Origin: Alphaproteobacteria bacterium
Lineage (GTDB): Bacteria; Pseudomonadota; Alphaproteobacteria; UBA8366; Aestuariispiraceae
Direction: 5' to 3'
NCBI GenBank assembly: GCA_024743195.1
Contig: JANSXE010000006.1
Span: forward strand, 1-64,000
DNA length: 64,000 nt
The translations under genes and the position numbers were made by a program. Under the pieces are notes generated by a model. That model was given only the letters and a program-made list of their open reading frames with translations, did no database searches and was not told the origin of the DNA. Of the stretch, positions 44,108 to 48,889 are shown piece by piece. How positions within the stretch are numbered: the stretch's first letter is position 1; every line of letters starts with the position of its first letter.

Positions 44108-44683
44108 CTAAAGCAGTCTTATGCGGTGGGACAGCGCGCGGCCGTCGCTCACCACCAGTTCCTCGAACCCCAAGAGCTTGCACAGGTCCAGGAAGGTCAG
44201 CGCCTCCGGCGGCGCGCCGATGTCGGTGAAGACGGGCGTGGAGCGCGCCGTGGCGGTCAGCCCCGCGAGCCAGGCCCGCATCCGATAGAGCGTCGCGAAC
44301 CGCTGATCGTCGAGCCCGACCAGGATGATCGTCCGGCTGCCCGCGCCCTTGGCGAAGATCATGAAGGGCGGCGCATAGCCGTTGCCCAGCATCTGGTTCG
44401 TCAGGCCCGTCAGGAAGGCGATGCGCGTGCGCTCGGTCGCGTTCGGCAGGGTCCGCACCCGCGGGCCGTACGTCTCCTCGCTTTCGGGCGGGGGATAGTA
44501 GTAGCCGATATAGCGGTCCTCCGCCGCGGCCGCCGCGGCCGCCTCGGGCGACGCCGGCGTCGCGGGTTCAAGCCCTTCGGCCGCCGCCGCGGCCGCGAGC
44601 GCCGGGGCCACCAGCATCAACGCCGCCGCCGCGCCCGCCCTCGCCACGCCCACTCGCCGTTTCGCCATCGCTCGCCTGTCCAT
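44108..44683 (-). CDS. Exported hypothetical protein
   Basis: A 191-residue protein with a signal peptide ([35 protein letters not shown]-type, cleavage near residue 36). The mature part begins with a Glu/Ala segment, then [65 protein letters not shown] and [19 protein letters not shown] do not recognise a named domain. The ATG at 44683 has GGAGGA 7 bases upstream. It is divergent from nadK with 121 bp between starts, so the two may share a control region. Confidence 0.75.
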
Positions 44684-44804
44684 GCGTCCTCCGCCCTTTC
44701 CGGTCCGCGGATCGGCGGCTACAGTTCGCCTCCGACCGGCCCGCCCGTCTCGCGCGCTGCCGACTGTGGCGCGCGGCGGCGCCGAAAAGCAAGGATTGGA
44801 CGCC

Positions 44805-45641
44805 ATGGCCGAGGCCCCCGCCCTGGAAGAGGGCGCGAAAGAGGCGGCGCAGACCGGCCGCCGCGCCGGGCGCCACGACCTGCGCATCGCCTTCGTCGCC
44901 TCGGAGGCGGAGGAGGCGCAAAGGGCGCTGGCGACGCTGAAGCGCCGCTACAAGCACGTTCCGACGACCGAGGAGGCGGACGTCGTCGTGGCGCTGGGCG
45001 GCGACGGCTTCATGCTGCAGACCCTGCGCGCCATGATCGGCCAGGGAACGCCCGTCTACGGCATGAACCGCGGGACGGTCGGCTTCCTGATGAACGAGTA
45101 CAGCGACGACGGGCTGACGGACCGCCTGCACAAGGCGCAGTCGCTCAAGCTCTATCCGCTGCGCATGAGCGCGACCCGGGTCGACGGAACGGTGGTGGAG
45201 GCGATCGCGATCAACGAGGTCTCCGTCTTCCGCGAGACGCGTCAGGCCGCCAAGATCGACATCCGCGTCGACGGGGTCAGCCGTCTGAACGGGCTGATCT
45301 GCGACGGCGTCCTGCTGGCGACGCCGGCGGGCAGCACGGCCTACAACCTCTCCGCCCACGGGCCGATCGTGCCGGTGGGCGCCGGCGTCCTGGCCCTGAC
45401 GCCGATCAGCGCCTTCCGGCCAAGGCGGTGGCGCGGCGCGCTGTTGCCGCAATCCGCGCGGGTCGAATTCGAAATCCGCAGCACCGCCAAGCGCCCGGTC
45501 AGTGCGGTCGCGGATTCGACCGAGGTGCGCGACGTGCGCCATGTCGCGATCCACGAGGACCGCACCGTCGCGGCCACGATCATGTTCGATCCCGAGCATA
45601 ATCTGGAGGAACGCATTCTGAAGGAGCAGTTCACCGCCTGA
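44805..45641 (+). CDS. nadK: NAD kinase
   Basis: A 278-residue kinase that makes NADP+ from NAD+ using ATP. The nucleotide-binding GGDG motif is at 65-68 ([11 protein letters not shown]), the NE/substrate motif in [11 protein letters not shown], and the glycine-rich [17 protein letters not shown] follows. About 25 extra residues precede the core. The ATG at 44805 has AAGGA about 9 bases upstream; the frame is open to 44682 but without protein character. Essential cytoplasmic enzyme. Confidence 0.95.
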
Positions 45642-45769: not shown

Positions 45770-48700
45770 ATGGACCACAGCATGTTCCGCTTCATCTGGC
45801 GCAACAGCCGGGTGCAGCAGGTGATCACGCTGCTGCTGACCCTGCTCTCCTTTCCGTTCCTCTACTACTCCTTCGATCTTCCGAAGCAGATCATCAACGA
45901 AGCCATCAATGTCGAGCAGGACATGATGGAGTTCCTGGGCGTGACCGTCACCCAGGTCGAGTATCTCTTCATCCTGTGCGGGATCTTCCTGGCGCTGGTC
46001 GTCGTGAACGGCCTCTTCAAGATGAAGATCAACACCTACAAGGGGGTGATGTCGGAGCGCCTGCTGCGCCGGCTGCGCTACATCCTTGTGGCGCGCACGC
46101 TGCGCTTCCCGTTGCCGCAGTTCCAGAAGACGTCGTCCGGGGAGATCGTCACCATGGTGACGGCCGAGGTGGAGCCGCTGGGCGGCTTCTTCGGCGACGC
46201 CTACGCGCTGCCCGCCTTCCAGGGCGGAACCTTCCTGACGATCATGGCCTTCATGTTCGTCCAGGATCCGTTCCTGGGGCTGGCCGCCTTCGCGTTGATC
46301 CCGGTGCAGGGCTACATCATCCCGAAGCTGCAGCGGAAGGTGAACCTGCTGGGCAAGGAGCGGGTCAAGCTGGTGCGCTCGCTCTCCAACCGGGTGGGCG
46401 AGGTGTCGGGCGGCGTGCCGGAAGTGCGCGCGCACGACCATACCGGCCATGTGCTGGCCGACGTGTCGCGCCGGCTGGGCAAGATCTTCGAGGTGCGCTT
46501 CGAGATCTACCAGCGCAAGTTCTTCATGAAGTTCCTCAACAACTTCATCAATCAGCTCACCCCCTTCTTCTTCTACGCCATCGGCGGCTATCTGGTGATC
46601 AAGGGCGAGCTCAGCTTCGGCGCGCTGGTCGCGGCGCTGGCGGCGTACAAGGATCTCGCGGCGCCCTGGAAGGAGTTGCTGAACTACTACCAGCGCCTCG
46701 CCGACAGCCGCATCAAGTACGAGCAGCTCATCGGCCAGTTCGAGCCCGCAGGCATGCTGTCGGAGACCCTGCAGGAGGGCCGGCCGGAGACGGACGTGCG
46801 GCTCGACGGGTCGATCGAGGCGACCGGACTCACCTGGGCGGACGAGGACGGCGTGCGGGTGATCGACACCGCCAACTTCGCCATCCGCGCGGGCGGCGTC
46901 GCCGCCATCCTGTCGCAAAGCGGCGTCGCGAAGGAGGTGCTGGCCCGGTTGCTCGCCCGGCTGCTCGCCCCGACGTCGGGCAAGATCAAGGCGGGCGGCG
47001 TCGATCTGGCCGGCCTGCACGAAGGCGTGACCGGCGCGCATATCGGCGTCGCCTCCGGCGAGCCGGCCTTCTTCAACGGGACCATCGCCGCCAACATGTT
47101 CATCGGCCTGCAGCGCAGCCCGCCCGATCCGAAGCAGGAGACGGCCGACGCCGAGCGCCGCGAGGAGATCGTGGAGGCCGAGGCCTCCGGCAACAGCCCC
47201 TTCAATCCGGAGACGGACTGGACCGACTACGCGCTCGCCGGGGTCAAGGATCGGGCCGATCTCACCGAACGCGCGATCGACCTCCTTCAGGCGGTGGAGA
47301 TGGAGGAGGACATGTACGCGATCGGCCTGCGCCAGACGGTCGATCCGGAGGCGGAGCCGGCCCTCGTCGAGGCGCTGATGAACGCGCGCCGCCGGGTGCG
47401 CGAGGCGCTGGACGCGCGCGGTTTCGACGACCTCGTCCAGACCTACGACTTCGCGCGCTACAACACCTATTCCTCGGTCGCCGGCAACATCCTCTTCGGC
47501 CGGCCGACGGTCCCGGAATGGCAGTACGACGCGCTGCACGAGAACCCGACGCTGAAGACGCTCATGGACAAGCACGAGCTGACCGAGCGTTTCCAGGAAA
47601 TCGGGATCAAGTGCGCCGAACTGATGGTCGAACTGTTCAAGGACGTCCGGCCCGGGCATCCCTTCTTCGAGCAATACAGCTTCATCGACGAGGAATTGCT
47701 GCCGGAGCTCAAGGTCATCGTTCGCAAGGCCAAGGGCGCCGGCGCGGGATCGGACCTGTCGGCCGACGAGCGCGCGCTCGTCGGCGGCCTGCCCTTCAGC
47801 CTGGTGGTGCAGCGCCATCGCCTCGGGCTGATCGACGAGGAGATGCAGGAGCGGCTCGTCGCTCTGCGCCGGGAGCTGCACGAGACCCACAAGGACGTCG
47901 TCGGGCCGGGCCGGGCGGTCGAGCCCTTCGATCCGGAGCGCTACAATCCCGGGCTCTCGATCCTGGACAACATGCTGTTCGGACGCATCGTCCACGGCCG
48001 GTCCGACGCGACGGAACGGGTGCAGGCGGTCGTCGGCGAGGTGTGCGACACACTGAACCTGCGCCGGGCCATCGTGCGCATCGCCTTCGACTTCCCGGTC
48101 GGCATCAACGGCGCGCGGCTCTCCAGCCTGCAGCGCCAGAAGCTCAATCTGGTGCGCAACACGCTGAAGCGTCCGGACCTGTTCATCCTGGTCGACGCGT
48201 TGAGCTCGATCGACGCGGCGACGCAGGCCCGCATTCTGCCGGCGCTGCGCGAGGCGCTGCCGCAGGCGACTTGGGTCTGGATCGGCGCGGGACCGCCGGA
48301 GGGCCTGACCCCCGATCAGGCGCTTGAGATCAAGAACGGCCGGGTGCTCGAGGCCGAAGGCGCGCCCTCGACCGAGCCCGAAGCGCCCGCCGAATCCGCT
48401 GAACCCGGCGTCGAGGCGACGGAGGAGGCGCTCGGCGCCGAGGCGAAGAGCCTGCAGCAGGTGCCGCTCTTCGCCAATCTCGATCCGACCCGGCTCAAGT
48501 TTCTCGCCTTCACCAGCGAGCGCAAGACCTACCAGCCGGGCGAGGTTCTGATGCGCGAAGGGGAGGAAGGGGACGCCGCCTACATCATCCTGGACGGTCT
48601 CGCCGAAGTGGTGGTCGGCGAGGAGGCCGAGGAGAAGGTGCTTTTCACCCTCGGCCGCAACAAGCTGGTCGGCGAGCTCGCGCTGCTCAACGATTCGCGG

Positions 48701-48889
48701 CGCTCGGCCACGGTGCGCGCGGTGGAGGTGACGACGGCGCTGAAGCTGACCCGCGAGGTGTTCAGCGAGATGGCGCGGCAGGACCCCTACTTCGCCTTCG
48801 AGATGACCCGCGAACTCGGCCGACGGCTGGTGCTCACCACCGACCAGCTCAACCAGACCCGCACAGCCCTGACCAGACGCGGGGGCTGA
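45770..48889 (+). CDS. Giant degenerate ABC-type membrane protein with C-terminal cyclic-nucleotide-binding domain
   Basis: 1039 residues. An exporter-type membrane domain spans about 15-310 (six hydrophobic segments; SSGEIVTMVTAEVEPLGGF is typical). The nucleotide-binding domain starts near 345 but is altered: the Walker A position reads AILSQSGVAKEV (379-390), the signature LSSLQRQ (784-790) in place of LSGGQ, and the Walker B end LFILVDALSSID (804-815) lacks the catalytic Glu. Walker A and signature are about 390 residues apart instead of about 100. The insert contains three NxLFG-like segments (near 442, 573 and 734), as if the post-Q-loop region had been repeated. A cNMP domain (about 895-1030) has GELALLNDSRRSATV with Glu and Arg kept. 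ATP hydrolysis looks doubtful. Confidence 0.85.
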   Translation: MDHSMFRFIWRNSRVQQVITLLLTLLSFPFLYYSFDLPKQIINEAINVEQDMMEFLGVTVTQVEYLFILCGIFLALVVVNGLFKMKINTYKGVMSERLLRRLRYILVARTLRFPLPQFQKTSSGEIVTMVTAEVEPLGGFFGDAYALPAFQGGTFLTIMAFMFVQDPFLGLAAFALIPVQGYIIPKLQRKVNLLGKERVKLVRSLSNRVGEVSGGVPEVRAHDHTGHVLADVSRRLGKIFEVRFEIYQRKFFMKFLNNFINQLTPFFFYAIGGYLVIKGELSFGALVAALAAYKDLAAPWKELLNYYQRLADSRIKYEQLIGQFEPAGMLSETLQEGRPETDVRLDGSIEATGLTWADEDGVRVIDTANFAIRAGGVAAILSQSGVAKEVLARLLARLLAPTSGKIKAGGVDLAGLHEGVTGAHIGVASGEPAFFNGTIAANMFIGLQRSPPDPKQETADAERREEIVEAEASGNSPFNPETDWTDYALAGVKDRADLTERAIDLLQAVEMEEDMYAIGLRQTVDPEAEPALVEALMNARRRVREALDARGFDDLVQTYDFARYNTYSSVAGNILFGRPTVPEWQYDALHENPTLKTLMDKHELTERFQEIGIKCAELMVELFKDVRPGHPFFEQYSFIDEELLPELKVIVRKAKGAGAGSDLSADERALVGGLPFSLVVQRHRLGLIDEEMQERLVALRRELHETHKDVVGPGRAVEPFDPERYNPGLSILDNMLFGRIVHGRSDATERVQAVVGEVCDTLNLRRAIVRIAFDFPVGINGARLSSLQRQKLNLVRNTLKRPDLFILVDALSSIDAATQARILPALREALPQATWVWIGAGPPEGLTPDQALEIKNGRVLEAEGAPSTEPEAPAESAEPGVEATEEALGAEAKSLQQVPLFANLDPTRLKFLAFTSERKTYQPGEVLMREGEEGDAAYIILDGLAEVVVGEEAEEKVLFTLGRNKLVGELALLNDSRRSATVRAVEVTTALKLTREVFSEMARQDPYFAFEMTRELGRRLVLTTDQLNQTRTALTRRGG

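Follow-up and report, generated by a model that had tools for sequence, protein, structure and literature searches.

The window analysed here is a 64,000-nucleotide stretch of an alphaproteobacterial genome of the Aestuariispiraceae (assembly GCA_024743195.1, contig JANSXE010000006.1). Its gene at positions 45770-48889 of the forward strand encodes, in a single open frame of 1039 residues, a pseudo-ATP-binding cassette (pseudo-ABC) exporter. An exporter-type membrane domain is followed by a nucleotide-binding domain (NBD) split by a long insert, and by a cyclic-nucleotide-binding domain (CNBD). This odd architecture was singled out by a first-pass annotation and is real. The explanation that we tentatively favour is that the pseudo-ABC is an exporter-derived, cyclic-nucleotide-gated and ATP-independent glycan transporter or flippase. 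Possible, but more doubtful, is the corresponding statement for a whole, widespread bacterial family, namely that an ABC exporter has been turned into such a transporter, its dead NBD having been remodelled as the helical subdomain was duplicated in tandem.

The fold itself is not in question. Pfam recognises ABC_membrane at residues 65-290 (2.2e-19) and ABC_tran at residues 366-462 (6.6e-8), both above the curated cut-offs. The second match covers only profile positions 2-80 of 137; the rest of the NBD, its C-terminal half, was located at about 772-862 by alignment to solved ABC exporters. Then follows cNMP_binding at residues 919-1005 (3.8e-20, 72.1 bits against a cut-off of 27.5). Both Pfam families of the ABC exporter fold (PF00664 and PF00005) are thus present, and VIA-align comparison of the predicted model agrees. 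The membrane domain type and the domain order given in the first-pass annotation are confirmed by Pfam and by the AF2 model.

The motifs of the ATP site are altered throughout. Their positions were fixed by alignment to solved ABC exporters. Walker A reads SQSGVAKE, which does not match the GxxGxGK[ST] consensus, and the Q-loop glutamine is replaced by Gly430. The signature is LSSLQ, not LSGGQ. In the Walker B motif, LFILVDA, the aspartate position is occupied by Val808 and that of the catalytic glutamate by Asp809, while the H-loop histidine position is Ala840. The early description of Walker A, the signature and the Walker B glutamate as altered was therefore accurate.

This loss extends to the relatives. 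We surveyed 117 distinct homologues over 800 residues long, leaving out the window protein itself. The Walker A lysine is retained in 70 of them and the serine or threonine after that lysine in 14; Walker B retains the aspartate (position 808) in 13 and the catalytic glutamate (position 809) in 66. The H-loop histidine is found in 27, and an exact LSGGQ in one. GxxxxGK is present in 59/117 and GxxxxGK[ST] in 7/117. Not one of the 117 combines the Walker A lysine and serine or threonine with the Walker B aspartate and glutamate and the histidine. Loss of ATP hydrolysis, initially suggested for the window protein, is accordingly supported by sequence across the family. Within the window's own family, the first glycine of the P-loop survives in 1/14 members. 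As P-loop retention differs in this manner, some relatives may bind nucleotide, and the window's clade probably does not do so in the usual way. A further decay of the NBD upon fusion to the CNBD was considered and rejected: the histidine is absent from all 31 fused homologues and present in 27 of the 86 split ones, yet the tree offers only one supported independent pair.

Could ATP still drive the protein, either at unorthodox sites or because a separate, canonical ABC half-transporter pairs with it in a heterodimer and contributes intact residues? The retention of GxxxxGK and of the Walker B glutamate in many relatives speaks for this, and heterodimeric exporters commonly have one degenerate site (PMC7756269, in the accessible text). 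Moreover, where the Walker A serine or threonine has become acidic, the Walker B aspartate is mostly asparagine (54/80; Fisher 8e-5, raw, for serine/threonine versus aspartate), as if the carboxylate could have moved. We rejected a moved carboxylate (serine or threonine to aspartate or glutamate in Walker A with aspartate to asparagine in Walker B), as the tree contains too few informative independent pairs (about 1-2; sign test p 0.5-1). In addition, the first P-loop glycine is lost in 13/14 members of the window's clade. A heterodimer is disfavoured because the signature is degenerate too, so that a good partner would complete neither site, and no canonical half-exporter partner was recognised among the neighbour clusters looked at, of which not every one is annotated. 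The heterodimer is nonetheless a main rival, and its partner could be encoded elsewhere in the genome. We regard an ATP-driven pump as distinctly unlikely.

The second peculiarity is the length of the NBD. From Lys388 to the signature the window protein has 396 residues, compared with 98 in one solved exporter, in line with the fourfold distance first estimated. In 115/117 homologues the stretch from Walker A to the signature falls in the 380-399 residue bin and in the other two in the next bin down. Since this length is nearly constant, the spacing is far beyond chance. Ordinary NBD accounts for about 100 of the 390 residues, which leaves a surplus of about 300. The insert boundaries were chosen as residues 448-722; folded alone, this segment is predicted to be mostly helical with a pLDDT of 90.9.

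Where does the insert come from? It carries copies of one element, of which the first (repeat a) is the NBD's own Q-loop/'TIAANMFIG' stretch, and the last (repeat c) runs into the normal helical region and then the signature. The asparagine of repeats a, b and c is conserved in 112, 117 and 117 of the 117 homologues. In profile comparisons, repeat b aligns with repeat c across 50 columns (probability 99), and the N-terminal half of the NBD matches the segment ending in c with a probability of 92 and that ending in b with 75; these are hand-picked segments compared one against one, which makes the E-values optimistic. Among known structures, the best VIA-align rows for the insert are ABC proteins, PCAT1 residues 566-640 (Z 5.2 and 5.0) and WzmWzt (Z 3.6). 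All are weak and concern about 70 residues of its second half, so that they agree with the repeats without being proof alone. By their numbering, we take the PCAT1 residues to be the region from Q-loop to signature. A known unrelated domain was rejected as the source, given that Foldseek gave no match under E 0.001 and that the best VIA-align rows were ABC proteins. The sequence repeats, the profile matches and the weak structural matches point alike, and our reading is that the insert arose by tandem copying of the Q-loop/helical-subdomain segment of the NBD itself. The idea that the insert may be a new functional module stands in part: it is conserved and has a predicted fold, but it resembles additional copies of a helical element that the NBD already has.

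The AF2 model of the full chain (72 sequences) has a pLDDT of 87.9 and a pTM of 0.76, with low confidence at residues 165-176 and 867-881. VIA-align places it among ABC exporters (best Z 25.6, 416 residues, 4.2 A). The isolated NBD of ComA matches 225 residues of the model at 2.2 A, and this match spans residues 343-867; it is therefore predicted that the NBD folds normally with the insert looped out. The model thus recovers the standard NBD fold, and a complete catalytic set was not recovered anywhere in the chain.

Beyond the NBD, the CNBD retains the residues expected for ligand binding. Gly968, Glu969 and Arg978 of the phosphate-binding cassette are present, which bears out the earlier remark on Glu and Arg. 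Across 31 fused homologues the glycine is found in 31, the glutamate in 27 (aspartate in 4) and the arginine in 30. We collected 124 loci with an ABC open reading frame (ORF), a few of which represent one genome met twice. The CNBD lies in the same chain in 35 and not in 89. In 83 of these 89, a CNBD ORF on the same strand opens close to the end of the ABC ORF (no more than 400 nt before or 1000 nt past it). Four of the other six have no CNBD in the stretch examined; at L116 it opens further upstream in another frame and L125 has a distant one only. Since most gathered loci encode the CNBD in a gene of its own downstream, the window protein is a fusion. Mapped onto a quick membrane-domain tree, the fused label requires 5 changes, compared with 28 in shuffles. 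Stop-codon read-through was rejected as the link in the split form: 36/83 pairs share the frame, but the CNBD starts mostly follow a ribosome-binding-like sequence (by eye), and ABC and CNBD genes would thus constitute an ordinary operon. In some lineages a metallo-beta-lactamase-fold hydrolase comes after the CNBD gene (L123:13149-13973; neighbour cluster 17, 6 loci). The CNBD protein of about 150 residues at L145:11809-12273 is annotated as a Crp/Fnr transcriptional regulator in several Sinorhizobium meliloti records; a homologue of it scanned by Pfam is without a DNA-binding domain.

A potential source of the ligand was found near some of the loci. Twelve places in the window's genome match class III cyclases, and a second cyclase profile was built from them. 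A cyclase lies within 3 kb of the pseudo-ABC in 11/92 loci, with 1.4 expected at own-genome density; beyond 3 kb, 3 cyclases occur in 811 kb. Twelve of the 92 loci come from window-family genomes added after the link was noticed, and without them the count is 7/80 with 1.2 expected (P 3e-4). The linked loci are not all independent and represent six or seven lineages by eye on the tree (P 3e-3 to 6e-4). In four window-family genomes the cyclase ORF lies directly upstream of the ABC gene and shares its strand, with 99-126 nt between the cyclase end and the ABC start. Two of these, one per genus, were scanned in full and are CHASE2-cyclases; the other two were recognised by profile. Cyclic-nucleotide control of the exporter, as proposed at the outset, is supported by the retained CNBD residues, by the fact that most gathered loci encode the CNBD separately, and by the cyclases near a minority of loci. 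One finding tempers it: the CNBD of the exporter HetC binds ppGpp (PMC10986499, in the accessible text).

The candidate cargo is suggested by glycosyltransferase genes. Neighbour clusters were defined by similarity, and their genes were counted within -4.5/+6 kb in loci that have 4 kb or more of sequence on either side. At least two genes of the glycosyltransferase neighbour cluster are present in 47 of the 52 non-fused loci. At L068 the cluster comprises two GT28-like proteins (one just under the Pfam cut-off) and two of GT4 type, and a histidine phosphatase gene lies between them. Another member of the cluster, taken from L057, has no Pfam match. A Methyltransf_17 gene comes after the CNBD in 18/52 non-fused loci. 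A putative peptide-type ABC import operon (our label by eye; it is annotated only as ABC transporter parts) stands near the glycosyltransferase cluster at many loci, upstream in L122 and L143 and in neighbour clusters 3, 6, 10 and 11.

The association holds at the level of genomes. The first GT28-like protein is encoded in 51/98 searched genomes, and together with the pseudo-ABC in 49; 4 have the ABC only, 2 the glycosyltransferase only and 43 neither. With one genome per family these four classes hold 13, 1, 1 and 40. Restricted to genomes of at least 2.5 Mb they hold 13, 1, 0 and 12 (p 2.7e-6), a cut that drops one glycosyltransferase-only genome of 2.4 Mb. Both genes occur in 14/14 genomes of the window's family. 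The glycosyltransferase locus of the window's genome (C29, L138) contains Peptidase_C26, an exonuclease-type gene, four glycosyltransferases and, as recognised by eye, a Methyltransf_17-like ORF; neither an ABC nor a CNBD gene was seen at L138 where relatives carry the pair. Because the pseudo-ABC and the glycosyltransferases of this genome lie on different contigs and no pair was recognised at L138, it seems that the gene pair moved and fused while the glycosyltransferase association stayed.

The first-pass annotation presumed that similar large proteins might exist in related genomes, and they do. At E <= 1e-60, 53/98 searched genomes (including the window's own) have a match, a few of them partial. 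A scan of bacterial and archaeal genomes gave at least 525 relatives among 589 candidates. The best 80 of these are mostly labelled alphaproteobacteria, with five gammaproteobacteria; since only the best 80 were named, this set leans to close relatives. Matches at the same threshold (E <= 1e-60) occur in 262 plasmid records, among them ones from Rhizobium, Sinorhizobium, Azospirillum and Ruegeria. One scan of viral contigs with the window protein alone, which reaches close relatives only, gave no match. The pSymB replicon of S. meliloti 1021 carries a homologue. In its reference record (L144:12001-15250) the sequence is one base longer than in the query strain and the ORF is broken into 237 + 762 aa; in the sister record L145 the homologue is annotated as one gene of 2712 bases. 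SMb20813, which may or may not be the pseudo-ABC gene, has been named the S. meliloti msbA homologue (PMC10945364, in the accessible text), and the accessible parts of PMC6180224 and PMC5498481 hold no information on the gene. No paper describing the family or its gene cluster was recognised in the open-licence literature searched.

Might these proteins simply be decaying genes or sequencing artefacts? The loss of catalytic motifs would fit this. It is refuted by the selection and conservation data, however: the frame is open, matches occur in 53/98 genomes and the insert length is conserved. Furthermore, the ratios of non-synonymous to synonymous substitution rates (dN/dS) by domain in six pairs range from 0.005 to 0.41. 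The highest value is that of a short linker, followed by the insert of the window pair (0.40); synonymous divergence is near saturation in some pairs, and the three split-form pairs cover the ABC gene only. As estimated from these sequences, the regions tested are under purifying selection in the six pairs. We consider decay or artefact extremely improbable.

A protein that moves nothing has to be weighed more seriously. It would act as a membrane receptor or scaffold that senses a cyclic nucleotide and turns the glycosyltransferases, or a different transporter, on or off, in the manner of SUR with its channel. The architecture is kept in full despite the loss of catalytic motifs, the glycosyltransferases co-occur even where unlinked, and the CNBD is a separate partner gene, all of which would suit such a role. 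Identity to the nearest relative, on the other hand, is highest in the membrane domain (86%), followed by the CNBD (75%) and then the NBD halves and insert (65-70%), a pattern which fits a transport path at least as well. We judge the receptor or scaffold to be an unlikely, though credible, alternative.

Paralogues consisting of the transmembrane domain (TMD) only bear on the energy source. At E <= 1e-95, 4/98 genomes (including the window's) encode such a protein of about 400 residues, and in the three that were read the chain ends after the membrane domain. To judge by these sequences, their existence shows that the membrane domain can persist without an NBD in the same chain. The paralogue in the window's own genome (L031:6792-8111, minus strand, C10) has an extra N-terminal stretch; its neighbours look, by their sequence, like a multicopper oxidase and an outer-membrane copper protein.

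These paralogues are also compatible with a secondary, proton-driven transporter evolved from an ABC exporter. The precedent is SbmA, which is proton-driven with an ABC-type membrane domain; its likely origin is the membrane domain of an ABC transporter ancestor (PMC13316013, in the accessible text). Against a close parallel, the NBD of the pseudo-ABC is kept and selected, unlike in SbmA, and Pfam finds no SbmA-family match in the window protein. No proton-coupling residues were identified, and no search was aimed at them. By analogy, an SbmA-like transporter is conceivable but improbable; it overlaps our best explanation, from which it differs solely in the energy source.

For the cyclic-nucleotide-gated glycan transporter or flippase, we infer the ligand, cargo, gating and energy source as follows. 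First, the ATPase of a homodimer-type ABC exporter would have died while the machine was kept. A cyclic nucleotide produced by a cyclase, in part of CHASE2 type, would then bind the CNBD. The ligand-bound CNBD would alter the packing of the two dead NBDs, with the insert as a lever or docking surface, and this change would open or close the membrane domain. The latter would move a product of the linked glycosyltransferases, a glycan or glycolipid, driven by a substrate or proton gradient and not by ATP turnover.

Several observations weigh against this scheme. Many of the relatives that keep GxxxxGK (59/117) or the Walker B glutamate (66/117) may still bind nucleotide. No cyclase lies within 3 kb in 81/92 loci, and none adjoins the window gene; the nearest on its contig is at C3:72347, over 20 kb off. 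Glycosyltransferases adjoin only 3/10 fused loci, compared with the 47/52 non-fused ones, and six genomes have one partner without the other (four the pseudo-ABC, two the glycosyltransferase). In the window's genome itself, the pseudo-ABC lies by a NAD kinase and the glycosyltransferase locus is on another contig.

A conserved exporter body without a full catalytic set asks whether the ABC machine can be rewired to another switch or energy source, and it points to a glycan pathway possibly under cyclic-nucleotide control. If the gated transporter is real, an ATP switch has been swapped for a cyclic-nucleotide switch running from a CHASE2-type cyclase to the CNBD. The pseudo-ABC would then represent a living intermediate between primary ABC pumps and secondary transporters without an NBD, with the TMD-only paralogues as the end point.

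The features of the gene and its upstream neighbour are collected in Table 1. The NAD kinase neighbour recurs in 8 loci, every one of them fused.

Table 1. Features of the pseudo-ABC gene and its upstream neighbour (window positions).
Feature	Positions	Strand	Basis
Whole gene, pseudo-ABC exporter fused to CNBD, 1039 aa	45770..48889	+	Pfam
Transmembrane domain, residues 1-340, exporter (ABCB/MsbA) type	45770..46789	+	Pfam ABC_membrane, AF2 model, VIA-align
NBD N-terminal half, residues 346-447	46805..47110	+	Pfam ABC_tran 366-462, alignments
Walker A remnant SQSGVAKE, residues 382-389	46913..46936	+	alignment
Repeat a, Q-loop and 'TIAANMFIG' element, residues 426-446, Q-loop Gln lost	47045..47107	+	
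Insert as delimited here, residues 448-722, mostly helical (predicted), family-conserved	47111..47935	+	
Repeat b 'FARYNTYSSVAGNILFG', residues 561-577, Asn573 in 117/117	47450..47500	+	
Repeat c 'FDPERYNPGLSILDNMLFG', residues 720-738, Asn734 and Gly738 in 117/117	47927..47983	+	
NBD C-terminal half, residues 723-866	47936..48367	+	alignments, model
Signature remnant LSSLQ, residues 784-788	48119..48133	+	
Walker B remnant LFILVDA, residues 804-810, Asp to Val, Glu to Asp	48179..48199	+	
Linker, residues 867-884, poorly conserved, model confidence low at 867-881	48368..48421	+	
CNBD, residues 885-1035, homologue a separate downstream gene in most gathered loci	48422..48874	+	
NAD kinase, upstream neighbour (ORF as listed)	44682..45641	+	Pfam

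How does the pseudo-ABC relate to known systems? ABC transporters are defined by ATP hydrolysis. By its sequence, the pseudo-ABC is filed by fold as a relative of ABC exporters and not as a functional ABC ATPase. Type IV exporters (MsbA, TAP, TM287/288, TmrAB, PglK) share the fold and the order of membrane domain and NBD; the window protein differs from them in its altered ATP-site motifs, the helical insert that parts the Q-loop from the signature with a surplus of about 300 residues, and the C-terminal CNBD. Heterodimeric exporters likewise lose catalytic NBD residues, but keep one canonical site (PMC7756269, accessible text), whereas the window chain is affected in Walker A, Walker B, signature and H-loop alike.

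The CNBD shares the Gly-Glu and Arg of the phosphate-binding cassette with CRP/FNR regulators. Their helix-turn-helix DNA-binding domain is not part of it: Pfam finds no DNA-binding domain in either of the two proteins scanned, the window protein and one CNBD protein encoded separately. Against TIGR03896 (cyc_nuc_ocin, a bacteriocin-type transport-associated protein) the CNBD scores 51 bits, far below the cut-off of 161. HetC, an ABC exporter of Nostoc, also combines a CNBD and an ABC exporter in one chain; that CNBD is protected by GTP and GDP and binds ppGpp, and cAMP is without effect (PMC10986499, accessible text). According to the same text, HetC differs in its N-terminal CNBD, its C39 peptidase and an ATPase domain with a needed catalytic residue. 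The window protein has its CNBD at the C-terminus, no peptidase domain in Pfam and has lost the ATPase motifs.

SbmA itself is not known to have an NBD. Unlike SbmA and SLiPT, the window protein retains a dead NBD, the insert and the CNBD. These systems illustrate that an ABC-type membrane domain can work without ATP (PMC13316013, accessible text), which for the window protein is a possibility only. The dead NBD, the insert of repeated NBD elements and the CNBD partner are a new combination on a known exporter fold.

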